Virus record (IMG/VR): IMGVR_UViG_3300033806_000109
Location: 1-23,121 of that record
Length of the DNA stretch: 23,121 nucleotides
Strand: one strand, 5' to 3'
Source of the DNA: a virus
The notes under the pieces were generated by a model. That model was not told the DNA's origin and did no database searches. It worked only from the letters and a program-made list of their open reading frames with translations. Position numbers and translations under genes: made by a program. This document shows positions 2,973-22,738 of the stretch, piece after piece. Position 1 is the first letter of the stretch. Every line of letters begins with the position of its first letter.

Positions 2973-3293
2973 ATGGGCGATTTCCGCATCGAGATCACGG
3001 CCATCGGAGGCCACGGGTGCCAGCGGGACCGCGGGGACGGCCAGAAGGTGCTGGGATGCCTGCGCGTGGGCTGCCCCGACTGTGAGACGCGGCGGTTCCT
3101 GCAGACGCTCCACCGGTTCGGGGTCTCGATCAAGGCGGCCGAGATCACCCACTGGCCGGGGGATCCCAACGAGGTCCGGGACGATCTGATGACGGCGATC
3201 CGGACGGGCACGTTCCCGGAGCATCCCTCGCGGCGGCCGGCCAAGCTGTCGTCGGAGCCCACGGCATCGAGCGAAGGGCGGGACCCGGCATGA
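2973..3293 (+). CDS. Conserved-looking phage protein with Cys motif
   Basis: 106 aa from ATG 2973, with a strong AAGGAG site. The N-terminal half holds 'AIGGHGCQRD' and 'GCPDCETRRF' (C16, C29, C34-x2-C37), a likely zinc site. The middle reads 'THWPGDPNEVRDDLMTAIRTG', a phrase I associate with small proteins near phage late genes, though I cannot name a family. Its stop overlaps the next start (ATGA). Function unknown. Confidence 0.6.
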   Translation: MGDFRIEITAIGGHGCQRDRGDGQKVLGCLRVGCPDCETRRFLQTLHRFGVSIKAAEITHWPGDPNEVRDDLMTAIRTGTFPEHPSRRPAKLSSEPTASSEGRDPA

Positions 3294-3469
3294 GTTACGG
3301 TCCCTGTGGAACGGGACAGCCCATGAGCGCGTGGCGGGACCCCGACCCCAACCGCCGCTGGCGCGAGACGGCGCAAGACACCGTGAACGCGGGCGAGCCC
3401 TTCCCCGAGGGCTTTGGGGCCTTGGACGTGGAGGCCGTGCAGCCGCAGCCCGAGCAGGAGGCGGCATGA
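3290..3469 (+). CDS. Hypothetical short protein
   Basis: 59 aa from ATG 3290, overlapping both neighbours by four bases. Polar, with Trp/Arg-rich (WRDPDPNRRWRET) and Glu/Gln/Pro-rich segments. An in-frame ATG at 3323 would give a shorter product. No family recognised; support comes mainly from the ATGA overlaps. Confidence 0.45.
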   Translation: MSYGPCGTGQPMSAWRDPDPNRRWRETAQDTVNAGEPFPEGFGALDVEAVQPQPEQEAA

Positions 3470-3747
3470 GCCAGGGCAACGGGGGCGACCGCACGGCCAT
3501 CGAGCGGCGCCGCGTGCGCATCTTGGTCAGCTACGAGTGGCTGGCCGGGCAGCTCAAGATCCCGACACAGGCGATCCGGACGGTCGTGAAGCCCCTGGAG
3601 CCGCGCTACCAGCAGCATCTCTTCGTGGAGATCGTCCTGCCCCAGGCGCCGGAGGTCCCCGAGGGCCAGCCCCCGCCCCTGGTGATGCTGGAGTATCCCG
3701 TGACGATGAAGCCGGTGCAGGACACCGGGATCGTGGTGCCGCAGTGA
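3466..3747 (+). CDS. Hypothetical protein upstream of terminase
   Basis: 93 aa from ATG 3466, with AGGAGG six bases upstream. The N-terminus is basic (AIERRRVRILVSYEWLAGQL); the rest alternates beta-like and Pro-rich segments (LVMLEYPVTMKPVQD). Its stop overlaps the GTG start of the terminase gene, so terminase expression is probably coupled to it. The position would suit a terminase small subunit, but no helix-turn-helix is visible. Unknown function. Confidence 0.55.
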   Translation: MSQGNGGDRTAIERRRVRILVSYEWLAGQLKIPTQAIRTVVKPLEPRYQQHLFVEIVLPQAPEVPEGQPPPLVMLEYPVTMKPVQDTGIVVPQ

Positions 3748-5576
3748 CGGCGGCCGTCAAGCCGGACGCGCTGCTGGCCGCCGTGAAGGCGGAGCAGTAT
3801 CGGCGCGACTTCCCCCGCTTCTGCCGGGAGCAGTTGAAGATCAAGCCCAAGCCGCGGCGGTCGTACAAGCCGACCGGCCGGGACGGCCAGATCGAAGAGC
3901 ACGTCGAGGCCATCGCCGTGGGCTCGCCGCCCGTGCCCTTCACGTTCAACCCCAGCCAGCAGCGCATGGAAGCGGCCGCCCAGGCGCAGCTCAAGAAGTG
4001 GGGCTGGATCCGCCAGGTCTGCCTGAAGTGCCGGCAGCCCGGGGGGAGCACGTACTGGGAGGCGCGGGGGTTCCACGTCGTCAGCTTGAACAAGAATTGC
4101 GCGATGCTGACGATTGCCCAAGATCCCGATACGACGGGGCATATTTTCGGGATCTCCCGCCTCTACTACGACTGCCTCGACCGGGATATCAAGCCCCTCG
4201 AGCGCTACAACTCGAAGAAAGAGCTGACGTTCGAGAACCCCGACGACAAGACGCGCGACCGCTATCCCGGCCTGCGCTCGCGGATCAGCTTCCAGACGGC
4301 CAAGAATATCCACTCCGGGACCGGGACCACCAACGTCGTCCTGCATCTCTCGGAGAGCGCGAAGTATGGCAGCTCGCGCGAGATGGCGGATCTTCTGTCG
4401 GCCTCGCTCCTGCCCTCGGTCCCCGATGCGCCGGGGACCATCATCGTCAACGAGAGCACGGCGCATACGTCGGGCGAGTGGTTCCACGAGCAGTGCGAGC
4501 GCGCGCAATCCGGGAAAGATATTTACGACTTCGTCTTCTGCCCGCCGCACATCCAGCCGGAGTACCAGCTCCCCATCCCCGACGACGAGGAATTCAGGCC
4601 GACGCGCGACGAGCGCCGGCTCATCAAGCATTTTCAGTGCTCCCTCGAATTCCTCCACTGGCGCCGCTATAAAATCCAGCAATTCGGGGGGGACTCCATC
4701 GCCGAGAGCCTGTTCAACCAGGAATACCCCCTGCGCCCGGAAGACGCCTGGATCAGCCTGGGCATGGGCGTGTTCGACGGGCGCATCTTGGAAGAGCTGC
4801 GGCGCGGCATCGTCCCGCCCAAGCAGGTCGCCGATATTTTCCCGGGCCCGAAGATGCTGGACAACCCGACGGGAGATCTCCGGGTGTGGGAGCCGCCTCT
4901 CCCGGGCGCGCAGTACGATATCGGGGTGGACACGGCCCAGGGGCTCGAATACGGCGACTTCTCGACCATGCAGGTCTTGCAGCGGGGGACGCGGGAGCAG
5001 GTGGCGGAATATCGCAGCCACGTCAACGCGGGCGACCTGGCGCCCCTCGTGTACGCCCTCGGGCAGTGGTACAACTGGGCGCACGTCGGCGTCGAGATCG
5101 ACGGCATCGGCTTTTATATCAACGACGCCCTGCAGAAGATGGGCTACCCCAACCTCTACGTCTGGCGCTACCGCGGCCGGGCCGTCCCGACCTTCTCGCA
5201 GCACTCGGGATGGGAGACGAGCAATAAAAGCAAGAAGCTCCTCGTCTCCACCACGCGGCACCTGCTCAATCACCGGCAGCTCCCGATCAAGTCCGAGCTC
5301 CTGCTCAACGAGATGCGGACCTTTCAAGTCGAGGCCACGGAGACGTCGGAGACCTATCGCGCCGCCCCGGGCAAGCACGACGATCTGGTCATGGCCCTGC
5401 TGATCGCGGCGCAGATTCAGGACGACGAGACCTTCGGCATGGCGATGCAAAGCCCCGAGGCAGCGGCCCCGAAGGGCTGGCAGGATCCGGCCACGACCGA
5501 CGACACGGACCTCGAGGAGCTCCGGGCTGTGCACGGGGCCGACCGGATGATCAAGGAATTGGCGGGGGTGAAGTGA
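3744..5576 (+). CDS. terL: Terminase large subunit
   Basis: 610 aa with a GTG start at 3744. This is the ATP-driven motor that cuts and packages phage DNA through the portal. The ATPase domain shows a Walker-A-like KCRQPGGST (95-103), a Walker-B-like segment VVLHLSESAKY (198-208) and a coupling motif NESTA (236-240). The RNase-H-like nuclease domain has D396 in IGVDTAQG, D405, E451 in VGVEIDG and D546/D547 in KHDDLVMAL, the expected metal-binding acids. The length is usual for the family. It overlaps the genes on both sides by one to four bases. A short acidic tail follows the nuclease domain. Confident family call; subtype (headful or cos) cannot be told. Confidence 0.93.
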   Translation: MTAAVKPDALLAAVKAEQYRRDFPRFCREQLKIKPKPRRSYKPTGRDGQIEEHVEAIAVGSPPVPFTFNPSQQRMEAAAQAQLKKWGWIRQVCLKCRQPGGSTYWEARGFHVVSLNKNCAMLTIAQDPDTTGHIFGISRLYYDCLDRDIKPLERYNSKKELTFENPDDKTRDRYPGLRSRISFQTAKNIHSGTGTTNVVLHLSESAKYGSSREMADLLSASLLPSVPDAPGTIIVNESTAHTSGEWFHEQCERAQSGKDIYDFVFCPPHIQPEYQLPIPDDEEFRPTRDERRLIKHFQCSLEFLHWRRYKIQQFGGDSIAESLFNQEYPLRPEDAWISLGMGVFDGRILEELRRGIVPPKQVADIFPGPKMLDNPTGDLRVWEPPLPGAQYDIGVDTAQGLEYGDFSTMQVLQRGTREQVAEYRSHVNAGDLAPLVYALGQWYNWAHVGVEIDGIGFYINDALQKMGYPNLYVWRYRGRAVPTFSQHSGWETSNKSKKLLVSTTRHLLNHRQLPIKSELLLNEMRTFQVEATETSETYRAAPGKHDDLVMALLIAAQIQDDETFGMAMQSPEAAAPKGWQDPATTDDTDLEELRAVHGADRMIKELAGVK

Positions 5577-8446: not shown

Positions 8447-8622
8447 GGAGCAGTGACCGCACGGAGCAGGTCAAGCGCGAGCGGCACACGGGACGGTTTG
8501 CCGCGCCCCGCAGCATAGTGTGCGCCCATTGCCACCGGTTGGGAGGCACGATGGTCAAGGCGGCGGGGTGGTACTTTCATCGGGAATGCCCGAAGGTGAT
8601 GGTGCCCCTACCGGGGAAGTGA
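8443..8622 (+). CDS. Small zinc-finger-like protein
   Basis: 59 aa with a GTG start at 8443 overlapping the previous stop. C27-x2-C30-x15-H46-x2-C49 is a clear zinc-binding pattern (VCAHCHRLGG, WYFHRECP) after a basic N-terminus. The same pattern with wider spacing occurs in the leftward gene at 1-326. Its stop overlaps the GTG of the homing endonuclease. Probably a nucleic-acid-binding accessory; no named family. Confidence 0.6.
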   Translation: MRSSDRTEQVKRERHTGRFAAPRSIVCAHCHRLGGTMVKAAGWYFHRECPKVMVPLPGK

Positions 8623-9128
8623 CCGTGGCGCACATTCTTCACGTTCTCGGCGATCCCTCTTTGAGCGAACCGTTGTCGATGACGGAATTCGAACGGGGGA
8701 TGCTGGCGGGACTGGTCATCGGCGAAGGGACGATAACCCTCTCCTCCATGGGGAAGAAGGGATTTCGGCCCGAAGTGAAACTCAGCAACACCGACCCCCG
8801 TATCATCCAGTGGATCGATGAGCTGCTCACGCGATGCGGGATCAAGCACTTCTGTTCGGTGATGAAGACCCGGCGCCTCCAGAAGCCGACCCACCGCCTT
8901 CAGTATATGATCTCCATCTGGGGCCTTGCGGCTACCCATCGCCTGCTGAAAGACTTACGGCCAGCACTCTTCGTCAAGGGCGAGCAGGCCGACCTTGTCT
9001 TGGGATTCATCGCCCTTCGCCTTTCAGCCTTGAAAACGCATGGGCGCTTCGGGAATCCGCCCCGGCAAGGGGAAGCTGAGGATGCCATCGTTGGAAAGAT
9101 TCGGTTCCTCAACAAGCGAGGCGCATGA
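8619..9128 (+). CDS. LAGLIDADG homing endonuclease, freestanding
   Basis: 169 aa from GTG 8619; GTG 8625 is possible. One LAGLIDADG motif, LAGLVIGEGTI (residues 29-39), in which E36 takes the place of the catalytic Asp as in many family members. It is followed by EVKLSNTDPRIIQWIDELL and further alpha/beta segments of the fold. A single motif implies a homodimer. Such enzymes cut a specific DNA site and spread by repair. Codon use is visibly less GC-biased than in the neighbours, consistent with insertion. It overlaps both neighbours, so it is integrated without breaking the translation chain. No intron or intein boundary is seen. Confidence 0.85.
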   Translation: MTVAHILHVLGDPSLSEPLSMTEFERGMLAGLVIGEGTITLSSMGKKGFRPEVKLSNTDPRIIQWIDELLTRCGIKHFCSVMKTRRLQKPTHRLQYMISIWGLAATHRLLKDLRPALFVKGEQADLVLGFIALRLSALKTHGRFGNPPRQGEAEDAIVGKIRFLNKRGA

Positions 9129-10600: not shown

Positions 10601-11455
10601 ATGCCGGAACCGAATCCGCAGGAGAAAAACCAGAACCCCACCCCTCCGGAATACATGAAGCAGTGGGAGGGGAAGAGCCTGCAGGACGTGGCGCAGGCGC
10701 ACCACGAGCTGAGCCAGAAGCTCGGCGAGCAGGGCACGGAGTTGGGCACCCTGCGCGGCCACCAGAAGCTCGTGGAGCGTATCAACGAGCTCGGCGGCCT
10801 GGACGCCGTCGAATACTGGGCCAAGTACGGCGCCGCGGAGTTCGACAAGCAGGAGAAGGCCAGGAAGGCGGGGCCCCCGAAGTCGGAGGGGAAGGCTGGC
10901 GGGGAGGGCGAGTTTGACCCCGCCGCCTTCGAGGCGCAGTTCGATGGGTGGGACCAGCACGACGCCAAGACGCAGGCGCTCCGGATGTTCAAGGCCGTGT
11001 TCGACCTCAATCAACGCTGGCTGAAGGACAACGTGCTGGGGTTCCTCAACACCAAAGAACAGGAGTTCGTCAAGCGGTTCGAGGACACGTTCGGGGGCCA
11101 CCGGCGCGAGTGGGATCTCTTCCGCCGCGCGCTGGGGCTCCATCTCAAGAACCCAAAGATCGACGTGGAGGACCTCCTGAAGCGCAGCCGCGATCTGGCC
11201 ACGGCCGATGCCGAGAAGCTCTTCGAGGTCGCCGCCGGGCAGATCACGGGGCCCGAGGAACAGGCCGCGAATCTCAAGGCCGCCGTGGCCACGGCCGTTG
11301 CCGAGGCCAAGGCGACGTGGGACCAGGAGCAGGCGAACCGGGAGATCACCACGTTGCGCGGTGGGGCGCGCCCCGGCAGTTCCGGTGTGGGCGAGCCGAA
11401 AAACGCCGCGGAGGAGAACGCCGCGATCCTGAAGATCGTCGCAGGACGTCGCTGA
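10601..11455 (+). CDS. Scaffolding-like head assembly protein
   Basis: 284 aa from ATG 10601, with AAGGG nine bases upstream. It is highly charged and predicted almost entirely helical: residues 24-65 (KSLQDVAQAHHELSQKLGEQ) and about 135-245 look like long helices or coiled coil, with Gly/Lys/Pro-rich linkers at 87-105 and near the C-terminus. This composition, and its place immediately before the major capsid gene, are typical of internal scaffolding proteins, which guide procapsid assembly and then leave. No protease is visible next to it. The assignment rests on context and composition rather than on a motif. Confidence 0.7.
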   Translation: MPEPNPQEKNQNPTPPEYMKQWEGKSLQDVAQAHHELSQKLGEQGTELGTLRGHQKLVERINELGGLDAVEYWAKYGAAEFDKQEKARKAGPPKSEGKAGGEGEFDPAAFEAQFDGWDQHDAKTQALRMFKAVFDLNQRWLKDNVLGFLNTKEQEFVKRFEDTFGGHRREWDLFRRALGLHLKNPKIDVEDLLKRSRDLATADAEKLFEVAAGQITGPEEQAANLKAAVATAVAEAKATWDQEQANREITTLRGGARPGSSGVGEPKNAAEENAAILKIVAGRR

Positions 11456-11458
11456 GCC

Positions 11459-11477
11459 GTCCCGGGTCCACCGGGAC
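11459..11477 (+). repeat. Hairpin after scaffold gene
   Basis: GTCCCGG/CCGGGAC, 7-bp perfect stem with a 5-base loop, directly after the scaffold-like stop. It has no T tract; possibly a transcript-stability or attenuation element. Confidence 0.45.
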
Positions 11478-11583: not shown

Positions 11584-12543
11584 ATGGCGCTTCCGGTGAC
11601 CAACGACCAGCTCAACAACGTCGTGACCTCGACGTATGAGGTCAAGCGGAAGCGGGTGGTCTACGATGCCTTCTTCGTGGACAACCCGCTGTTCGTCCGC
11701 CTGAACACCAAGGAAAAGGTCAAGACGATGGGCGGCAGCCCCATCACCTTCCCCTTCATTTACGACAAGCTGCCGGGCGGGTCCTACGGCAAGGGCGACA
11801 AGTTCGGCACGGCCTTCAAGGAATTCATGACGGAGGGCCGGCTGAATTGGAAGCGCTACCGCGCGGAGATGGCGGCCGATGGGCTGGACATCGCCGTGAA
11901 CCGGGGCGAGCTCGCCGTCATCGACTGGATGGAGACCCAGATGCAGGTCGCCGAGCGGACGCTGGCCGAGGATATCGGTCTCGACCTCTATGGCGACGGG
12001 ACGGGCAACAACTCCAAGGCCCTCGACGGCCTGCGGGTGGCCATCGACGACACCCTGAGTTACGGCGGGATCACCCGCGACACCAGCAAGCAGGGCACGG
12101 CCATCAAGGCCTCCGTGAACACCACAGGGGGCGCCTTCTCCTTCGCCATGATCAACACCCAGATGGGGAAGGTGACGTTCGGGAAGCGCAAGCCCGACCT
12201 CCTGCTCATGTCCCAGCGCCTCTGGAACAAGGGCTGGGAGCGGTCGCAGCCCTCCGAGCGGAACGTCGCCGAGGACCTGCGCAAGGTCGGGTTCAACTCC
12301 TGGCAGATCAATGGGGCGGACGCCGTGGTGGACCCGCACGTCACGGACGACGGGACGAACGGGACCATCTACGGCGTGAACACCGACTTCCTCGAGTTCT
12401 GGGTGCTGGAGGGCAACGACTTCCGGCTCCGCGGGATGTTCGAGGTGCACGACGAAGACACCCAGGTCGGGCAGATCATCAACTACTGCAACGTCGTCGT
12501 GCCGGCGCCCCGGTACAACTTCCGGATCGACAACGTGCAGTAA
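11584..12543 (+). CDS. Major capsid protein
   Basis: 319 aa from ATG 11584, behind GGAGCAC. Features fitting an HK97-fold capsid subunit: N-terminal helix (TNDQLNNVVTSTYEVKRKRV), a stretch rich in Gly and aromatic residues (GGSPITFPFIYDKLPGGSYG) like the E-loop region, the long spine helix (QMQVAERTLAEDIGLDLYGD), then a beta-rich P/A domain (LLLMSQRLWN, NSWQINGADAVVDPH) and a C-terminal beta strand region (YNFRIDNVQ). Length, order after a scaffold-like gene, and the structured leader fit. No delta-domain protease signal is visible. The family subtype cannot be named with confidence. Confidence 0.85.
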   Translation: MALPVTNDQLNNVVTSTYEVKRKRVVYDAFFVDNPLFVRLNTKEKVKTMGGSPITFPFIYDKLPGGSYGKGDKFGTAFKEFMTEGRLNWKRYRAEMAADGLDIAVNRGELAVIDWMETQMQVAERTLAEDIGLDLYGDGTGNNSKALDGLRVAIDDTLSYGGITRDTSKQGTAIKASVNTTGGAFSFAMINTQMGKVTFGKRKPDLLLMSQRLWNKGWERSQPSERNVAEDLRKVGFNSWQINGADAVVDPHVTDDGTNGTIYGVNTDFLEFWVLEGNDFRLRGMFEVHDEDTQVGQIINYCNVVVPAPRYNFRIDNVQ

Positions 12544-12600: not shown

Positions 12601-13377
12601 ATGCTGACCCAGAGCTATTACAATCTCGCCAACATGATCCACCTGGCCGGGCCCGACCTGGAGGCGAACGACCTGAGCCCCCGGTTCACGCCGGGCGGCT
12701 TCGGCTTCTTCGCCGACGCGCACGGGCCCCGGTTCATGCAGTATATCAAGAGCGCCGAGACCAGCACGACGCTCGCCCTGGGGGACTGGGTCTGCCGGGC
12801 GGCCGACGTGACGATCAGCTCGATCACGTCGGGGACGACGGTGTCCGTCACCAAGACGGCCGCCGGCCTGACGGCCTCGGCGCACATCGGGAAGGAGCTG
12901 ATCGACGAGACCGAGGCAGTGGCCGGGGGCGCCCCCGAGGGCGAGTCCGGCATCATCGTGGCCAACACGACCACGGTGGTTACCATCGACAGCCTCTATC
13001 CCTTCTCGACCGCGCCGTCCGCGACCGCGAACATGCGGATCCGGTCGGTCTTCCATGGGATCCAGAACACCAGCGCGACCACGAAGTCCCGGAACATGCT
13101 GGGCTCGGTGGTGGCGGCCGGCGGCATCACGGCCGGTTACTACGGCTGGGTCCAGTTCGGGGGCGTGCATCCCAACTGCGGGACGAAGGCGAGCGCGGCC
13201 ATCGTGCTGGGGGTGGCCGTGATCGGCACGACCACGGCGGGGAAGTGCGGAACCTCCAGCTCCAGCGCCGTCGATCTTCTGCTGGGAAGGGCGCTGTGCA
13301 CGGTGGCGTCCACCAACAGCGGGCTGAACCCCGTCGATATCGACTGCAACGTCTTCGGCACCTTAGCCTCGGCGTAA
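12601..13377 (+). CDS. Capsid decoration/stabilisation-type protein
   Basis: 258 aa from ATG 12601, with AAGGAGAGGAG just upstream. It is rich in Thr, Ser, Gly, Ala and Val and apparently all-beta. 'YYGWVQFGGVHP' (about 180-190) followed by alternating hydrophobic strands resembles small decoration or head-fibre domains placed after phage capsid genes. Four Cys are scattered without a zinc pattern. Role inferred from position and composition: it probably sits on the capsid surface and stabilises it. Confidence 0.6.
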   Translation: MLTQSYYNLANMIHLAGPDLEANDLSPRFTPGGFGFFADAHGPRFMQYIKSAETSTTLALGDWVCRAADVTISSITSGTTVSVTKTAAGLTASAHIGKELIDETEAVAGGAPEGESGIIVANTTTVVTIDSLYPFSTAPSATANMRIRSVFHGIQNTSATTKSRNMLGSVVAAGGITAGYYGWVQFGGVHPNCGTKASAAIVLGVAVIGTTTAGKCGTSSSSAVDLLLGRALCTVASTNSGLNPVDIDCNVFGTLASA

Positions 13378-13388
13378 GGGGGTGACCC

Positions 13389-13634
13389 ATGGGCGCTCTC
13401 ACGCCGACCAGCAAGTTCACGCACGTCTTCGGAGACCGCTACGTCGAGCTCTACGCGCTGGGCACCGTGACCGACGGCGACACGCTGGTCACCGGGCTGA
13501 CGACCATCGAGGCCGTCATCGCCACGGGGCAGAGCGCCGCCACGGCCATCGGCGTGACGTTCTCCGGCAGCACGATCACGTTCCACGAGTCGGCCTCGGT
13601 GGCCGGCGCGTACGTCGCGGTCATCGGGACGTGA
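13389..13634 (+). CDS. Small beta-rich structural protein
   Basis: 81 aa from ATG 13389, preceded by GGGGGTGA. Alternating strands (RYVELYALGTV, TTIEAVIATGQS, GVTFSGSTITFHESA) suggest a compact beta-sandwich, as in minor head or decoration proteins. It follows the decoration-like gene by 11 bases and precedes the polysaccharide module by one base. No specific family recognised. Confidence 0.55.
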   Translation: MGALTPTSKFTHVFGDRYVELYALGTVTDGDTLVTGLTTIEAVIATGQSAATAIGVTFSGSTITFHESASVAGAYVAVIGT

Positions 13635-13635
13635 C

Positions 13636-14823
13636 ATGCTCGGCGGCCTGCTCGCAGCCGCCGTCGCGCTGGTCCTGCTCAATCTAGGCCCCTTCGGGCC
13701 CACGGAGCGGGATAAGCGCCACCACTATCTCTGGGTGGGCGCCGGGCTCTTGGTAGCCGGCGCCTGCCCGGAGCGGTGGGTCGGTCTGTCTTTGGCGGTG
13801 ATTGTTCTTTCGGCCCTCCTGAAGCCTCCCATCGCGCACTCGACCCTTTCGCTGCCGCCCATCGTGGCCTGGGGGGGTGTCTACGACCTGTTATCCGTAG
13901 CCCTCCCCAGGCCAGGATGGCACCTGGCCATGGCCGCCGCAGTGGCAGTCTGCTGTCTGGGGATCGTGCTGTCTACGACGCTCCGCGTTATGATTATCAC
14001 CCGGGGGATCGACCCGTTCAATGTGGAGGTCCCCTTGAAAATCCCCTTCACGAGGCTGGCCTACGTCTACCATACGCAATCGCCCAATCTCTGCGCGCCG
14101 CTCGATAACCCCTTCTTCGCCGGACCAGCCTTCGCCTGGCTGCTGCCGTGGGTGGCCGGGATGACATTGCATGCCCAGGGATACCATGTCATCCCCTGGG
14201 CGTTCTTGGGCCTGATCCTCCTCTGGGGCATGTGGCTGACGGGCTCCCGGGGCGCCTGGGTGGCCGCCCTCGTCTCCGCGGGGGTGTACGTGGCCGTCCT
14301 CATGGCCCCGGCCGCTCCTGGCGTCCTAGTGGCAGCCCTGGGGGGTGCTGGCGCGGTGGCCGTGGTTGCCTGGATGGGGCCGACGGGACGGCAGCGGGAC
14401 GCCTGCCTGCGCCAGAGCTTCCTCCGGTGGCAGAAGTTCCCCTGGATCGTCCGCTGGACCGGGACCGGGCCCTGGGGGTGGTGGTTCTGGATGGCCGACG
14501 GGAGACCCCAGCAAGGCCTCGTGCCCACGGAGGAGGCCATACGACTTCGGGAGTACGCCACCCCCGGCCAAACGATCCGGCACCTGCACAACGATTGGGC
14601 ACAGGCGGTCTTCGAGCACGGGCCTTTGATCCTCGTCCCGACCCTGGGCTACCTGGCCACCACGCTGTGGCGCCTGGGCCATTCTCCGGACCCGTGGGCG
14701 CCCGCCATGGCCGCCGGCGTGGCCGGGATCGCCGTCACGTGCCTGTGGGCGCATCCCTTCAGAATGGCCGACACGAGCCTGCTGATTCTCTTATGGCTCG
14801 TCGGGGCCGGACAGGTTCGATGA
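13636..14823 (+). CDS. O-antigen ligase/polymerase-like (Wzy_C) membrane protein
   Basis: 395 aa from ATG 13636. About ten hydrophobic segments are visible. 'WLTGSRGAWVAALVSAG' (200-216) matches the S-R-G motif at the start of the Wzy_C domain; 'WIVRWTGTGPWGWW' (270-283) matches the Gly-rich part; and 'RHLHNDWAQAVFEHGPL' (315-331) matches the HND..Q...E.G motif of the large periplasmic loop in WaaL/Wzy proteins. These enzymes join or polymerise undecaprenyl-linked glycans at the outer face of the inner membrane. Ligase, polymerase and protein O-oligosaccharyltransferase share this domain and cannot be separated here. It is linked to the preceding small structural gene by a one-base gap. A phage-borne copy among head genes is unusual. 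Confidence 0.8.
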   Translation: MLGGLLAAAVALVLLNLGPFGPTERDKRHHYLWVGAGLLVAGACPERWVGLSLAVIVLSALLKPPIAHSTLSLPPIVAWGGVYDLLSVALPRPGWHLAMAAAVAVCCLGIVLSTTLRVMIITRGIDPFNVEVPLKIPFTRLAYVYHTQSPNLCAPLDNPFFAGPAFAWLLPWVAGMTLHAQGYHVIPWAFLGLILLWGMWLTGSRGAWVAALVSAGVYVAVLMAPAAPGVLVAALGGAGAVAVVAWMGPTGRQRDACLRQSFLRWQKFPWIVRWTGTGPWGWWFWMADGRPQQGLVPTEEAIRLREYATPGQTIRHLHNDWAQAVFEHGPLILVPTLGYLATTLWRLGHSPDPWAPAMAAGVAGIAVTCLWAHPFRMADTSLLILLWLVGAGQVR

Positions 14824-14826
14824 CCC

Positions 14827-15726
14827 ATGGCCGATGGGCTGGAAGACCTCCTCAGCGGCCTGGCGGAGGCCTTCCGGAGTCAGACGCCGGGCATCATTCC
14901 CATCGGCCGGGCGCTCATGCGGCTGGCGGCGCCCCCCGCAGGCACGCCGCCGGCCACGGGGCTTCAAGGCCCTTTCACCGGGCGGGCGATTGCGCCCGTG
15001 GCCGCGGGGACGCCCGTCGAGCGGGAGGCCGAGCTGCCGCAGGTGGCCATGGCGCTCTCGATGCTGCTGGGCAGCGGGCCGGGCCAGGCGCGCATCGGCG
15101 TGCTGCCGGAACGCATCCCGATGGCCATGCGCTCCGTACGAGAGGGGATGCCGGAGGCGTGGTTCCACGGCGCGCAGCATCCCGAGAAGATCCTGTCCGA
15201 GGGATTCTCCCCGGCGAAGATCGGGACCGATATCCCGCTCTGGGACTACGAGCCGGCGGGGGTGTCGCTCACGAAAGACCCCCACTATGCCCGCGCGTGG
15301 AGCCTTGGCGGACAGGCGAGTGGTCAGGTCCTCCGCGTCGGCGTGGACATTCCGCCGGAGCAGATTGGGCGCTTCAGCGACCCGGCGTTCCGGAAGCTCT
15401 TTATCAAGCTGGCGGATTTTCACGGTCCCCAGCGGGGCTTCGAGATGGCGCGGGATCTCCAGGAGCGGGGCTATGCGGGGATGCTCTATGGCCGGATGGG
15501 TGGTGCGGAGGAAGAGCTCCGGGCCTTTGACCTGTCCCGCCTGCACCCCCTGGGGCTCCTCGACACGAACACGAAGGATGCCCTGATCCGAAGACTCAGG
15601 CGGCGCCAGCTCAGAGTTCCCGGATACGAGGACGAGACGAGGGACTGGCCGATGCCGATGTCTTCGACCGGTCTGAGCGGCTGGATGGGCAACCTGCCGC
15701 CCGACATTCGCATGGGGGCGAGATAA
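14827..15726 (+). CDS. ADP-ribosyltransferase-like protein (tentative)
   Basis: 299 aa from ATG 14827. Residues about 110-245 have the order of an ART fold of the H-Y/S-E type: 'AWFHGAQHPEKILSEGF' (H114-G115, then helix and GF), 'GVSLTKDPHYARAWSLGG' (145-162, strand-S-x-T-x-D-helix), 'VLRVGVDIPPEQIGRF' (168-183) and 'AEEELRAFDLSRLHPLG' (227-243), with E228-E230 as candidate catalytic Glu. The N-terminal 100 residues are Pro/Gly/Ala-rich with helices and may be an anchor or virion-targeting region. ARTs transfer ADP-ribose from NAD to a target; phages use them to modify host proteins early, sometimes as injected virion proteins. Remote-homology inference; a toxin-like or structural domain is the alternative. 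Confidence 0.5.
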   Translation: MADGLEDLLSGLAEAFRSQTPGIIPIGRALMRLAAPPAGTPPATGLQGPFTGRAIAPVAAGTPVEREAELPQVAMALSMLLGSGPGQARIGVLPERIPMAMRSVREGMPEAWFHGAQHPEKILSEGFSPAKIGTDIPLWDYEPAGVSLTKDPHYARAWSLGGQASGQVLRVGVDIPPEQIGRFSDPAFRKLFIKLADFHGPQRGFEMARDLQERGYAGMLYGRMGGAEEELRAFDLSRLHPLGLLDTNTKDALIRRLRRRQLRVPGYEDETRDWPMPMSSTGLSGWMGNLPPDIRMGAR

Positions 15727-15728
15727 CC

Positions 15729-16766
15729 GTGCGCATCGCCATCACGCTCTATTCCCTCGACGGCGGGGGCGCCGAATTCCAGATGGCGCTCCTGGCCGGC
15801 GGACTGCACAAGCGGGGCCACGAGGTCGAATTCTGGCTCATGGCGTCGAGCGAGAACGAGCGATGGGCGTCCCGCTGGTGCCGTCCGTTGATTCGGCGCG
15901 CGCGCCTCCTGCCCGGGCGCCTGGCCTACGCCGGCATCTTGGGAAGCTGGCGGCGGGCACTCAAGCGCTTCCGGCCCCATGCGGTCATTGGGGGCCTCCC
16001 CCTGCCGCATACGCTGGTCTCGCTGGCGGCCACGGGGCTCGACATCCCCGTCATCGGCCGGCGCTGCGCCTCCTGGGGGGACCTGACGGTGTTCCCCCAG
16101 CACGCGCGGATGCCCCGGAAGCTCCGGGCGATGCGCCGGCTGGCCGCGCGGGGGACGGCCGCCATGGTCTGCAACGCCCAGCACGTCCTGGCCAGCGCGC
16201 GGGACCTCGAGGGCTGGCCGAGGGAGAAGCTGCGGCTGATCCGGAACGGCTGGCCCGAGTCGCCCGCCATCGACCACGAGAATCGCCTCGTGGCCACGGC
16301 CGGCCGGGGGCGGATCGAGAAAGACCACGAAGCCCATCGGCGGATCATGTCCGGCTTGCCCCGGCTCGACGGCCAGCCCGGGACGCGGCAGGAGCACGTC
16401 TTTCATTACGAGGCCGATGTCCCGTGGCACAACATGGGGATTTACGCCCACGTCTCCCGGAGCGAGGGGTGCTCCAACGCCATCGGCATGGCCATGGCCC
16501 ACGGGATCCCCGTGGTCGCCTACGGGACGCTCGGAAATCTCGAGCTCCTGCGGGACCTGCCGACCGTGTGGCCCTACGAAGAAAGCCTCTTTCGGGACCG
16601 GATTCACGTCCTGCAGTCGAGCCGGGAATTGCGGGAGATCCTGGGGGTACGTGGCCAGGAGCTCGTGCGGAAACGCTTCGGCCTTGACCGGATGGTGGAG
16701 GAATGGGAGAGCCTGATCGACGAGACAGCGACTCCGCGGTGCCCGACCTGCGGCCAGCGACCGTAG
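15729..16766 (+). CDS. GT4-like glycosyltransferase
   Basis: 345 aa with a GTG start at 15729, two bases after the previous stop. The N-terminal Rossmann half starts with ITLYSLDGGGAEFQMALLAG (4-23), the Gly-rich acceptor-domain loop of GT-B enzymes. The C-terminal half shows 'HVSRSEGCSNAIGMAMAHGI' (241-260), the nucleotide-sugar site of GT4 families. In the usual E-x7-E pair E246 is present, but the second position is M254, and the linker between the halves (185-225) is short. It may act with reduced or changed donor use, or be degenerate. It presumably adds a sugar to a lipid-linked or protein-linked glycan. The C-terminus carries CPTCG (338-342), possibly an artefact of overlap with the next gene. 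Confidence 0.8.
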   Translation: MRIAITLYSLDGGGAEFQMALLAGGLHKRGHEVEFWLMASSENERWASRWCRPLIRRARLLPGRLAYAGILGSWRRALKRFRPHAVIGGLPLPHTLVSLAATGLDIPVIGRRCASWGDLTVFPQHARMPRKLRAMRRLAARGTAAMVCNAQHVLASARDLEGWPREKLRLIRNGWPESPAIDHENRLVATAGRGRIEKDHEAHRRIMSGLPRLDGQPGTRQEHVFHYEADVPWHNMGIYAHVSRSEGCSNAIGMAMAHGIPVVAYGTLGNLELLRDLPTVWPYEESLFRDRIHVLQSSRELREILGVRGQELVRKRFGLDRMVEEWESLIDETATPRCPTCGQRP

Positions 16767-17368
16767 AGCGGCCGTCCTGGGTGCCCTGGTTCCGGCGCGC
16801 CCTCGCGCGCTACCAGAACCCGTGGGCCTATTTTCTCGATTCCGTGAAATACATGGAACCCGTGTTCGGGCGGATCCGAACGCTCGCGCCCCCGCCGTGC
16901 CGTCTGATCGAGCTGGGCTGCGGGATCGGCATGGCAGCCGCCATCCTCAGCGGCTATGGCTACGATGTCGTGGGTGTGGACGATGACCAGTCCGTCCTGT
17001 GGCTGGCCGCGTCGATGCCCTGGCAGCGGTGCAGCCTCCGGTCGCTCTTGCACCACGGCGACGTCCGCCAGGGCTTCGGTGGCTGGAACGTGGCCACGAG
17101 CCTCGGCGTCATCGAGCATGAAGACCACGCGATGCGCCGGGTCATGCTGGAGCGCCTCCGGGAGGCCGGCAGGGTGCACGTCGTCTGCTGGCCCAGCCCG
17201 TTCGGCCTGGCGCACGACGAGCCCACGATGGGCGAGCGGACACTCTATCTCCAGGAAGTGAGGGACGAGTGCCAGAGCGTGGGGTGGACGGTCATTGAAG
17301 CGTTCGGCTTCGGGGGACCGCTTCCCTCCTCGGCGCCCTGGAGCCATTGCATCATTGGTGGCCGATGA
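16703..17368 (+). CDS. SAM-dependent methyltransferase 1
   Basis: 221 aa from ATG 16703, with GGTGGAGGA immediately upstream, overlapping the glycosyltransferase by 64 bases; GTG 16739 is an alternative start. Class I fold: motif I IELGCGIGMAAA (69-80), acidic strand-2 end VVGVDDDQ (89-96), 'NVATSLGVIEHED' as motif IV and then 'GRVHVVCWPSPFG'. Target unknown; position between a glycosyltransferase and another methyltransferase suggests a sugar. No targeting signal is seen, so it is cytoplasmic. Confidence 0.8.
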   Translation: MGEPDRRDSDSAVPDLRPATVERPSWVPWFRRALARYQNPWAYFLDSVKYMEPVFGRIRTLAPPPCRLIELGCGIGMAAAILSGYGYDVVGVDDDQSVLWLAASMPWQRCSLRSLLHHGDVRQGFGGWNVATSLGVIEHEDHAMRRVMLERLREAGRVHVVCWPSPFGLAHDEPTMGERTLYLQEVRDECQSVGWTVIEAFGFGGPLPSSAPWSHCIIGGR

Positions 17369-18081
17369 AGGAATACGTGTCGTCCTTCGGCTACGAATGG
17401 TCCCGGCACTCCCGGACCCAGTTCGGGGACGAGAGCGACGAGACGTTCCACGTGAAAACCGGCTGGACCCCGGCCGATATTCAGGGGCGGCGCGTCCTGG
17501 ACGCCGGGTGCGGCAGCGGGCGCTTCGCCGATGTGGTCCGGCGGTGGGGGGGCAACGTGACGGCCTTCGACCTGAGCGGCGCGGTGCAGACCGCCGCCCC
17601 GGCCGGTCGCGTGGCGAAGGCCGATCTCTTCGCCCCGCCCTTCCCGCCGCGGACCTTCGACAAGGTCTACTGCCTCGGAGTCCTCCATCATACGCCCTGG
17701 CCGGGCCTCGGCGTGTACGAGCTGTCCCGCCTGGTGAAGCCCGGCGGGGAGCTGGCGATCTGGGTGTACGGCGAGATGGGATCGTGGGCCCGGCGGGCCG
17801 ACCGGCTGCGGCGCTGGACGCCGAAGCTGCCGCATCGGCTCCTGTACGCCCTCTGCCACGCGGCCGTGCTCACCCGGGGGTTCGGGGGGCTGATGCCGGT
17901 CAGCACCCACCCCCGGTGGCGGTGGAGGGTGCTCGACACGTTCGATTGGTACGCGCCGCCCATTCAGAGCCGGCACGACCTGCAGGAGGTCTCCCGGTGG
18001 TTGTGGGCGGCGGACCTGCGCGACCTCGTGCCGGGGGACTTTCCCGTCTCCATGCGCGGCCGGCGGCCGCTGAGAGGGTGA
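17365..18081 (+). CDS. SAM-dependent methyltransferase 2
   Basis: 238 aa from ATG 17365, overlapping the previous stop (ATGA). The N-terminus 'SSFGYEWSRHSRTQF' followed by 'TGWTPADIQGRRVLDAGCGS' is typical of methyltransferases in surface-polysaccharide gene clusters. Motif I is VLDAGCGSG (44-52), the acidic residue is D69, and 'FDKVYCLGVLHHTPWPGLG' (98-116) and 'LVKPGGELAIWVYG' (123-136) complete the Methyltransf_11-type core. The remaining 100 residues are basic and Trp-rich, perhaps a glycan- or membrane-contact region. Probable O-methylation of a sugar; substrate not provable. Confidence 0.85.
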   Translation: MKEYVSSFGYEWSRHSRTQFGDESDETFHVKTGWTPADIQGRRVLDAGCGSGRFADVVRRWGGNVTAFDLSGAVQTAAPAGRVAKADLFAPPFPPRTFDKVYCLGVLHHTPWPGLGVYELSRLVKPGGELAIWVYGEMGSWARRADRLRRWTPKLPHRLLYALCHAAVLTRGFGGLMPVSTHPRWRWRVLDTFDWYAPPIQSRHDLQEVSRWLWAADLRDLVPGDFPVSMRGRRPLRG

Positions 18082-18085
18082 CACG

Positions 18086-18436
18086 ATGCACCTACTCGAT
18101 TGGTTCATGTCCAAGCTCGCCGAGCATTGGGTCGAATACGCCGATTCGCCCGCGGCGACGGTGACGGCGACCCACGCGGCCGTGACCGGGAAGCAGCACG
18201 TCATCGTGACCGTCGATGCGAGCTTCAAGACCTCGACCACCGACGGACAGATCCGGCTCTTCGATGGCACCACGGAGATCGCCTCGAAATACATTCACGG
18301 GGCCGGGGCCATCGACTTCGGCGAGAGCGGGCATCCCTGTACGAAGGGCAATCTGGTCCAGGCCATTCTCACGGGCGGCTCCGGCACCGAAAGCGGGGCC
18401 ATCACCATGAACGGCTTTTCCGTGACGCCGGGATAG
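18086..18436 (+). CDS. Beta-rich small structural protein
   Basis: 116 aa from ATG 18086, with GAGGGTGA upstream. After a short helix (LLDWFMSKLAEHW) the chain is all-beta and Thr-rich (ATVTATHAAVTGKQHVIVTV, GQIRLFDGTTEIASKYI, SGAITMNGFSVTPG), like an immunoglobulin or jelly-roll virion accessory domain. It comes directly after the methyltransferase genes, so the late structural run resumes here. No family recognised. Confidence 0.6.
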   Translation: MHLLDWFMSKLAEHWVEYADSPAATVTATHAAVTGKQHVIVTVDASFKTSTTDGQIRLFDGTTEIASKYIHGAGAIDFGESGHPCTKGNLVQAILTGGSGTESGAITMNGFSVTPG

Positions 18437-21229: not shown

Positions 21230-22165
21230 ATGAGCCTCACCCTCACGCAGATGAAGACGCGCATCCGGATCCTGACCGGCGAGCTGGTGGACGCCGGCGA
21301 GGCCGAAGTCCTCCTTCAGGACCGCTACAGCGAGCTGCTGGATAACTATTCGTGGTCCCAGGCCAAGAACGAAACGACCATCAATACCATCCCCCAGCGG
21401 GGCGACGGGACCATCGCCATTTCTTCCGGGACGCCCACGCTGGTCCAGGGGACGGGGACGAGCTTCTCGACCAACGACGTCGGCGGCTTCTTCCGCGTGG
21501 GGACGGATATTGGCTTCTTGAAGGTCAACAACGTCGATCCCGTGGGCCAGATCCTCACGCTGGAGGCGCCGTACCCGAACCCGCCCGTGGCCTCGGGCAG
21601 CTCCTACACGCTCTTCTTCACTTTCTATACGATGCCGGCGGACCTGCGGCGCATCGACAACATGGTCGAATGGTTCGACATCACCGAATGGTCCGTGGAC
21701 GACCTCATGCGGGCCGACCCCCAGCGGACCTTCACGGGCAGCGACCCGCTCCACTTCGTCTACCGCGGGCTGGCCGCGAACAACTGCGTCCAGATCGAGC
21801 TGTGGCCGATCCCCACGGGCGCCGTGACCGTGCGCATCCCCTATTACAAGCGGGTGAGCCCCCTGACGGAGATCGGCACGGCGAGCGATACCGGCATCAT
21901 CCCGTCGTCCCTCCTGATGGACGTCACCATGCCCGACGCCCTCGCCCTGGCCATCGTGAAGGAGAAAGACCAGAAGAAGCTCATGGCCCTGAGCAAGGTC
22001 CTGGACCGGGCGGAGGCGAAGGCGACCCGGAGCCTCGAGGAAGCCCAGCACATGGACCTGGGACTGCAAGGGGCGATTCGGAAGTGGATGCCGATGGGGC
22101 GGCCGGCTTGGATGCTGGATGACTTTTTGCCGGTTCACGATGCCGAAAGTTTCGGACTCCCATGA
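21230..22165 (+). CDS. Head-tail connector/adaptor-like protein
   Basis: 311 aa from ATG 21230. The N-terminal helices (LTLTQMKTRIRILTGELVDA, AEVLLQDRYSELLDNYSW) are followed by a beta-rich insert and by helices near the C-terminus (LALAIVKEKDQKKLMALSKV, RAEAKATRSLEEAQHMD). The overall plan, with 'VQIELWPIPTGAVTVRIPYY' in the middle, resembles adaptor or connector proteins that extend the portal ring in podo- and siphoviruses. It precedes a related-looking gene at 22735, with the HNH gene inserted between them. The final residues are polar. Confidence 0.6.
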   Translation: MSLTLTQMKTRIRILTGELVDAGEAEVLLQDRYSELLDNYSWSQAKNETTINTIPQRGDGTIAISSGTPTLVQGTGTSFSTNDVGGFFRVGTDIGFLKVNNVDPVGQILTLEAPYPNPPVASGSSYTLFFTFYTMPADLRRIDNMVEWFDITEWSVDDLMRADPQRTFTGSDPLHFVYRGLAANNCVQIELWPIPTGAVTVRIPYYKRVSPLTEIGTASDTGIIPSSLLMDVTMPDALALAIVKEKDQKKLMALSKVLDRAEAKATRSLEEAQHMDLGLQGAIRKWMPMGRPAWMLDDFLPVHDAESFGLP

Positions 22166-22210
22166 ATGATTTTCTTCCTACACACGATGAATCTATGATA
22201 CGTTGTGAGC

Positions 22211-22738
22211 ATGGATACCGCAGCGGAACACAAACGGCGCCGCGACCTTGCTTGGAAGAAACGCAACCGCGCCAAGTGCAATCGGTGGCTTCGTCGGTGG
22301 AGGCGAAAGAACCTCAAGCACTCATTGGCGTGGCACCGTCGCTGGCGGCAGGAGAACGCGGAGCGATGCGCGGAGTATCACCGACGCGACTACACAAAAC
22401 ACAAGGCGAAGCGGCGGAAGACGAACAATCGCTGGCGAGCCGTGCATCCAAAGGAGACCAATGCGGCGAATCGACAGGGCTACCGACGGCTTCGCCAGCA
22501 GGTTCTGGACCATTACGGCGGAAAGTGCCGATGCTGCGGAGAGAAACGGCTGGAGTTCCTCGCCCTTCACCACCTAAATGGAGGTGGCAGGCAGCACCGA
22601 AAATCTCTCGGCCTCTTTTCTTTGACCCCTTCCTGGTACAGGGTGCGCGGGTTCCCCAAGGGATTCGGAGTGCTTTGTCATAATTGTAACTTTGCGCTGG
22701 GACGGTACGGGTACTGTCCGCACAAGAACAAGCCATGA
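22211..22738 (+). CDS. HNH homing-endonuclease-like protein
   Basis: 175 aa from ATG 22211; GTG 22205 would add two residues. The N-terminal 100 residues are Arg/Lys-rich helices (WKKRNRAKCNRWLRRWRRKN), probably for DNA contact. The nuclease core has C106-x2-C109 (KCRCCGEK), 'FLALHHLNGGGRQHR' (116-130, with H120/H121 and N123 as the HNH residues) and 'LCHNCN' (C156-x2-C159) completing a zinc-stabilised beta-beta-alpha-metal fold. It is preceded by 45 AT-rich bases, uses less GC-biased codons than its neighbours, and ends on ATGA with the next gene. Likely a freestanding mobile endonuclease. Confidence 0.85.
   Translation: MDTAAEHKRRRDLAWKKRNRAKCNRWLRRWRRKNLKHSLAWHRRWRQENAERCAEYHRRDYTKHKAKRRKTNNRWRAVHPKETNAANRQGYRRLRQQVLDHYGGKCRCCGEKRLEFLALHHLNGGGRQHRKSLGLFSLTPSWYRVRGFPKGFGVLCHNCNFALGRYGYCPHKNKP

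Follow-up and report, generated by a model that had tools for sequence, protein, structure and literature searches.

A phage-encoded distant relative of the O-antigen ligases and its neighboring genes for putative surface-glycan remodeling

Whether a gene lying among the structural genes of an uncultured tailed phage encodes a relative of the O-antigen ligases, and what such a membrane protein may do together with the products of its neighbors, are the questions raised by the locus described here. The window, meaning the whole stretch of DNA that was analyzed, is a linear record of 23,121 bases that comes without a completeness estimate and is possibly a fragment. In addition to the capsid and adaptor genes listed in Table 1, it contains genes for the large subunit of a terminase (weak match in Pfam) and a P22-like portal protein (8.1e-13). 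The open reading frame (ORF) of interest, at 13636–14823, runs from an ATG to a TGA on the plus strand and specifies a product of 395 amino acids, called P0001. Its GC content by codon position (0.67/0.53/0.84) follows the same pattern as that of the adjacent phage genes, so that the ORF is a real coding gene; the coordinates and coding status given in the preliminary description are thereby borne out.

Table 1. Coordinates of P0001, its active-site codons, the genes of the block and the flanking phage genes
Feature	Positions	Strand	Basis
Major capsid protein, left flank	11584..12543	+	phrog_9953, E 1.3e-44
Conserved follower of the capsid gene, shared by related phages, left flank	12601..13377	+	common to L174, L198, L199
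O-antigen ligase/Wzy_C superfamily membrane protein, P0001, 395 aa	13636..14823	+	profile, hhalign, codon GC
Arg205 codon (SRG), corresponding to E. coli WaaL R215 and C. metallidurans WaaL R191	14248..14250	+	alignments; PMC3643930, PMC10920833
Ser261 codon, at the column of the invariant Arg that binds diphosphate (E. coli R288, C. metallidurans R265, D3 R270)	14416..14418	+	MAFFT, hhalign; HMMER: R254
His318 codon, at the position of the putative catalytic His (E. coli H338, C. metallidurans H313, D3 H300)	14587..14589	+	alignments
ORF, second gene of the block, no family assigned	14827..15726	+	no Pfam, PHROG or NCBIfam match
GT4-type glycosyltransferase (Glyco_transf_4/Glyco_trans_1_4)	15729..16766	+	Pfam-type family match
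SAM-dependent methyltransferase	16703..17368	+	weak match
SAM-dependent methyltransferase (Methyltransf_11)	17347..18081	+	family match
SU10-type head–tail adaptor, right flank	21230..22165	+	PF24175

Relationship of P0001 to the Wzy_C superfamily

By profile comparison, P0001 is a distant member, by descent, of the O-antigen ligase/Wzy_C superfamily (CAZy clan GT-C1), in agreement with the homology first proposed from its motifs. The comparison relied on a full-length profile of 26 bacterial Wzy_C proteins from many phyla, from which P0001, E. coli WaaL and Wzy-beta of Pseudomonas phage D3 were left out. Against this profile P0001 scored 39.6 bits over residues 6–389, E. coli WaaL 63.5 bits and D3 Wzy-beta 27.6 bits, while the best control scores were about 6 bits for 300 shuffles of P0001, about 10 bits for a reversed family member, about 3 bits for 26 E. 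coli polytopic membrane proteins and 8 bits for the best reversed one. In hhalign against the ligase profile, the probability was 97.4% for P0001 (E 1.2e-11), 97.5% for E. coli WaaL and 95.0% for D3 Wzy-beta, with RodA at 73%, FtsW at 63% and the other control membrane proteins at or below about 10%. RodA and FtsW are known fold relatives of the ligase family. Assignment of P0001 to these SEDS proteins was considered and rejected, the 63–73% values being the expected fold kinship and P0001 being far closer to the ligases.

The sequence motifs agree with this placement. Proceeding from the N- to the C-terminus, P0001 has NPFFAG (158–163), SRG (with Arg205), the Gly-rich GTGPWG (276–281) and HND..Q...E.G (with His318), so that the motifs named in the preliminary description (SRG, Gly-rich and HND..Q...E.G) all occur in order, and the profile score set against shuffled and membrane-protein controls places them beyond chance. 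The hydropathy profile displays seven strong segments. AlphaFold2 models had mean pLDDT values of 46 and 40 (one made without an alignment, the other with a shallow alignment in which the loop was misaligned) and were both unusable.

Standard family models are less sensitive to this sequence. In a six-frame search, PF04932 gave 16.1 bits (E 1.1e-4 for the record) over model positions 3–143 of 149, under the Pfam cut-off of 31.7; the experimentally tested polymerase D3 Wzy-beta is also under this cut-off, at 25.4 bits. No match was returned by hmmscan of P0001 against Pfam, PHROGs and NCBIfam, probably owing to biased-composition filters. The PglL_A (PF15864) and PglL_B motifs around Wzy_C likewise gave no Pfam match at E ≤ 10, in a scan that also missed Wzy_C and is therefore insensitive here. 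When P0001 was combined with bacterial ligases in one profile, the search of the PDB found the WaaL structure 7TPG (E 5.6e-14); P0001 alone did not find it.

Relatives were sought in bacteria and in mobile elements. A phmmer search with P0001 alone, run over 199 genomes from the phylum of G014 (Elusimicrobia) and 297 from that of G023 (Edaphobacter), gave weak matches in 20 genomes. Nine of the matched loci were examined, and the ORFs at all nine scored 134–228 bits against the ligase profile; some other, weaker loci have stops. The nearest sequences found are ligase-like proteins from the same two phyla (Elusimicrobia and, for Edaphobacter, Acidobacteriota), which are 23–25% identical to P0001 over about 240 residues, with BLAST E values of 1e-12 and 9e-11 that hold within a ten-sequence set. 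Unlike P0001, these are products of bacterial genes, are often longer and all have the invariant loop Arg discussed below. A phmmer search of 299 Pseudomonadota genomes yielded no match at E 0.001, tblastn against phage and plasmid records gave no relative (one plasmid match at E 10), and scans of IMG/VR and of bacterial genomes by peptide patterns, which reveal close relatives only, found none. A narrow motif scan of IMG/VR ([FIL][TNS][FKG][TS]RG[AG]W[VLM][AG]) recovered one Wzy_C gene, apparently in host LPS DNA. Contig L202 (IMGVR_UViG_3300048861_000209) has host-like LPS genes at 3185–4459 (glycosyltransferases, waaL-like, MsbA-like), that is, host DNA in a virus record.

Active-site residues and the catalytic status of P0001

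Residues that matter for function are R215, R288 and H338 in E. coli WaaL (PMC3643930) and R254, R270, R272 and H300 in D3 Wzy-beta (PMC4815439); R191 of C. metallidurans WaaL binds the Und-PP phosphate (PMC10920833). The corresponding columns were read from three full MAFFT alignments with 38 family proteins, a small set picked by the Wzy_C and ligase profiles. Arg205 of P0001 stands at the SRG Arg column in 3/3 alignments, and His318, Asn319 and Gly329 are kept (HX10G, within the family pattern HX9–10G).

The loop is different. Its Arg column, occupied by Arg in 38/38 relatives, holds Ser261 in P0001 in all three alignments, and the same was found in earlier MAFFT alignments and with hhalign; HMMER alone puts Arg254 there, with local posteriors of about 0.5. 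At the column of another Arg that is common in the family (E. coli R265, D3 R254), P0001 has a gap, and its loop is shorter than in relatives. From these alignments, the invariant loop Arg of P0001 is probably not at its place. The preliminary description had made the conserved periplasmic-loop His and Arg a check on its proposal. The outcome is mixed: P0001 has the His as well as the SRG Arg, while the loop Arg probably is not where it should be, and the serine at this column had not been anticipated.

Since the residue found in 38/38 relatives aligns to Ser261, the activity of P0001 is uncertain. One explanation is that P0001 has lost the diphosphate-binding Arg, is non-catalytic and blocks the host ligase or polymerase in the manner of a decoy or a dominant-negative partner. 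The serine and the shortened loop would fit such a protein, and phages do inhibit host polymerases, as exemplified by the small D3 protein Iap, which works by another route (PMC12373910). However, the retention of Arg205, His318, Asn319 and Gly329 is not predicted by loss of function, Ser261 has Arg259 and Arg264 as neighbors within one helical turn, and the HMMER alignment offers Arg254, so that a decoy is considered unlikely. By its sequence, P0001 may be a ligase, a polymerase, an oligosaccharyltransferase or a non-catalytic decoy. The protein would offer a natural test of whether the ‘invariant’ Arg of the WaaL active site is dispensable.

The gene block and its phage setting

The P0001 gene heads a block of same-strand genes that overlap or sit a few bases apart (Table 1); its own start is one base past the preceding stop, and the next start is three bases past its end. 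For the GT4 glycosyltransferase, the best NCBIfam matches include exopolysaccharide-type GT4 models, all far under their cut-offs. The second gene of the block gave no more than chance-level matches in the PDB; an ADP-ribosyltransferase domain, suggested by a resemblance seen by eye, was rejected, PF18760 giving no match. No flippase, acetylase or polymerase inhibitor was recognized in the 23,121-base record.

The capsid gene and its conserved follower lie on one side of the block, the tail-side genes on the other. The capsid protein is 23–31% identical to those of Myxococcus phages Mx8 and Mx9 and other podovirus-like phages, and about 40% identical to those of contigs L174, L198 and L199; its best match (43%), followed as a clue to the host, is on a contig assigned to one Pseudomonadota genome, perhaps through a binning error. 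L199 has the same gene order as the record (terminase, portal, capsid, follower and adaptor), and among the ORFs tested between its follower and adaptor genes no glycosyltransferase, methyltransferase or Wzy_C family was recognized. In fifteen related loci, none of the ORFs of at least 80 codons matches the ligase profile. The block therefore looks like an accessory insertion. The small genes that flank it (13389–13634 and 18086–18436) have no significant homology to their L199 and L174 counterparts, which leaves its borders approximate. In L174, a glycosyl-hydrolase-like ORF (10680–11468; PF14885, E 7.4e-5) lies past the capsid genes, where the record has the glycan block.

These flanks also bear on a technical explanation, namely that the locus is an assembly chimera or a host gene misplaced in the record. 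A linear record may be a fragment, and contig L202 demonstrates that a host waaL-like locus can occur in IMG/VR. Yet the two flanks come from a single phage lineage with the gene order of L199, only a few bases separate the genes at the junctions, and the codon usage of the block differs slightly, not clearly, from the rest (RSCU r 0.966; fraction of random partitions at or below this value, 0.06), which makes an artifact very improbable.

Other genes of the record, and of related contigs, deserve mention. A LAGLIDADG-type homing endonuclease gene (8604–9128; PF14528, E 3.2e-7) lies between the portal and scaffold genes, and its GC3 of 0.73, clearly lower than the 0.83–0.96 of the structural genes, suggests a recent arrival. 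Past the adaptor gene, an HNH-endonuclease-like gene (22205–22738) has a GC3 of 0.69 and 36% identity over 88 residues to a sequence in phage L003. In L200/L201, a methyltransferase-like stretch (5018–5326) between terminase and portal matches the second methyltransferase of the record (E 1.4e-5).

Proposed role and comparison with known phage systems

The favored reading, to which a probability of about one half is assigned, is that P0001, the GT4 enzyme and the two methyltransferases form a late-made set that remodels the surface glycan of the host. What is observed in its favor is the homology of P0001, the gene neighborhood and the presence of R205 and H318, with the effect of D3 Wzy-beta on its host as a precedent. 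Counting against it are the serine at the loop Arg column, the gap at the other common Arg, the Pfam score under the cut-off, and the lack of a recognizable flippase, acetylase or polymerase inhibitor in the record. P0001 would be a polytopic glycosyltransferase homologue of the inner membrane, with a topology that is predicted. In the cytoplasm, the GT4 enzyme would add a sugar to an undecaprenyl-linked glycan (the lipid-linked substrate being presumed), which the methyltransferases would then cap or decorate. On the periplasmic side, P0001, if active, would form a new inverting linkage from the undecaprenyl-diphosphate glycan, a reaction assigned to clan GT-C1 (PMC10920833), and so polymerize repeats or move them to an acceptor. 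That these proteins share one pathway is suggested solely by gene position. Expression of the block with the late genes is deduced as well, because promoter- and terminator-like sites around it are not above chance; the in-line capsid and tail genes and the lack of a recognizable promoter of its own point to late synthesis. A receptor glycan altered late might prevent progeny from rebinding to debris and keep competitors out, a presumed benefit.

The position of the block could also mean that the targets are virion proteins. The substrates of Wzy_C enzymes are lipid-linked glycans, handled at the periplasmic face of the membrane, a place that virion proteins do not reach before lysis. Decoration of the virion by the GT4 enzyme and the methyltransferases, with the Wzy_C-like gene as an unrelated neighbor or one serving another purpose, would suit a location between head and tail genes, and capsid glycosylation has been suggested for mycobacteriophages with putative glycosyltransferases (PMC11256854). 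This explanation leaves the Wzy_C-like gene without a role, and periplasmic-side substrates would be out of reach of virion proteins until lysis; it is thus judged even less probable than a decoy.

What is known of serotype conversion by phages comes mostly from the prophages of a small number of well-studied hosts. Lysogenic seroconversion of the classical D3 kind, in which a temperate phage expresses the block from the prophage, would be in line with the membership of P0001 in the same superfamily as D3 Wzy-beta, and a gene at 661–897 for a MerR/HTH_17 protein with a weak excisionase match is the sole hint of a temperate lifestyle. On the other hand, no integrase was recognized in the 23,121-base linear record, so that the temperate nature assumed at the outset did not find confirmation; no promoter rises above chance, and the block is in line with the late genes, whereas D3 wzy-beta and VG_p25 of Variovorax phage VarioGold run against theirs (PMC9658991). 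Lysogenic conversion accordingly ranks among the doubtful explanations, at a level with the decoy. Returning to late remodeling of the host glycan, a bolder version is advanced only tentatively: P0001 would be a Wzy_C homologue with a moved or lost diphosphate-binding Arg that is made late and, together with the GT4 enzyme and the methyltransferases, serves the host glycan machinery as an inhibitor or as a partner of altered specificity, amounting to serotype conversion in the lytic phase instead of in lysogeny. A Wzy_C homologue set in a late structural gene order, with a glycosyltransferase and methyltransferases of its own, would in this uncultured podovirus-like lineage carry serotype conversion into the lytic phase and into further hosts.

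A ligase or polymerase homologue next to capsid genes had been called uncommon. That none was found in the nearest related loci partly supports this, but phage-encoded Wzy_C proteins are already known from D3 (PMC4815439) and VarioGold (PMC9658991), and 20 IMG/VR contigs carry the D3 type. P0001 differs from these by its large sequence distance, the position and strand of its gene among the late genes, its partner genes and the Ser261 anomaly. Compared with WaaL (E. coli; C. metallidurans, PDB 7TPG/7TPJ), P0001 has near full-length profile similarity and equivalents of R215/R191 and H338/H313; unlike WaaL, it has Ser261 for R288/R265 in most alignments, and its gene lies outside an LPS core locus. 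D3 Wzy-beta (386 aa), which changes the O-antigen of its host (PMC4815439), is likewise a phage-encoded polytopic Wzy_C protein of similar length with an essential His, but P0001 is only 14–18% identical to it, and the D3 protein keeps the essential loop Arg R270. D3 wzy-beta runs opposite to the late genes of its phage and has iap and an acetylase gene close by, whereas the P0001 gene is in line with the late genes, beside the GT4 and two methyltransferase genes; the layout of the D3-type conversion unit (polymerase, iap and acetylase, against the late genes) does not occur at 13636–18081. VarioGold VG_p25, set beside P0001 by its published description (PMC9658991), is also a phage-encoded protein of the O-antigen ligase family with a Wzy_C motif; it has 10 predicted TM segments, is 31% identical to the D3 type and belongs to a block that runs against the late genes.
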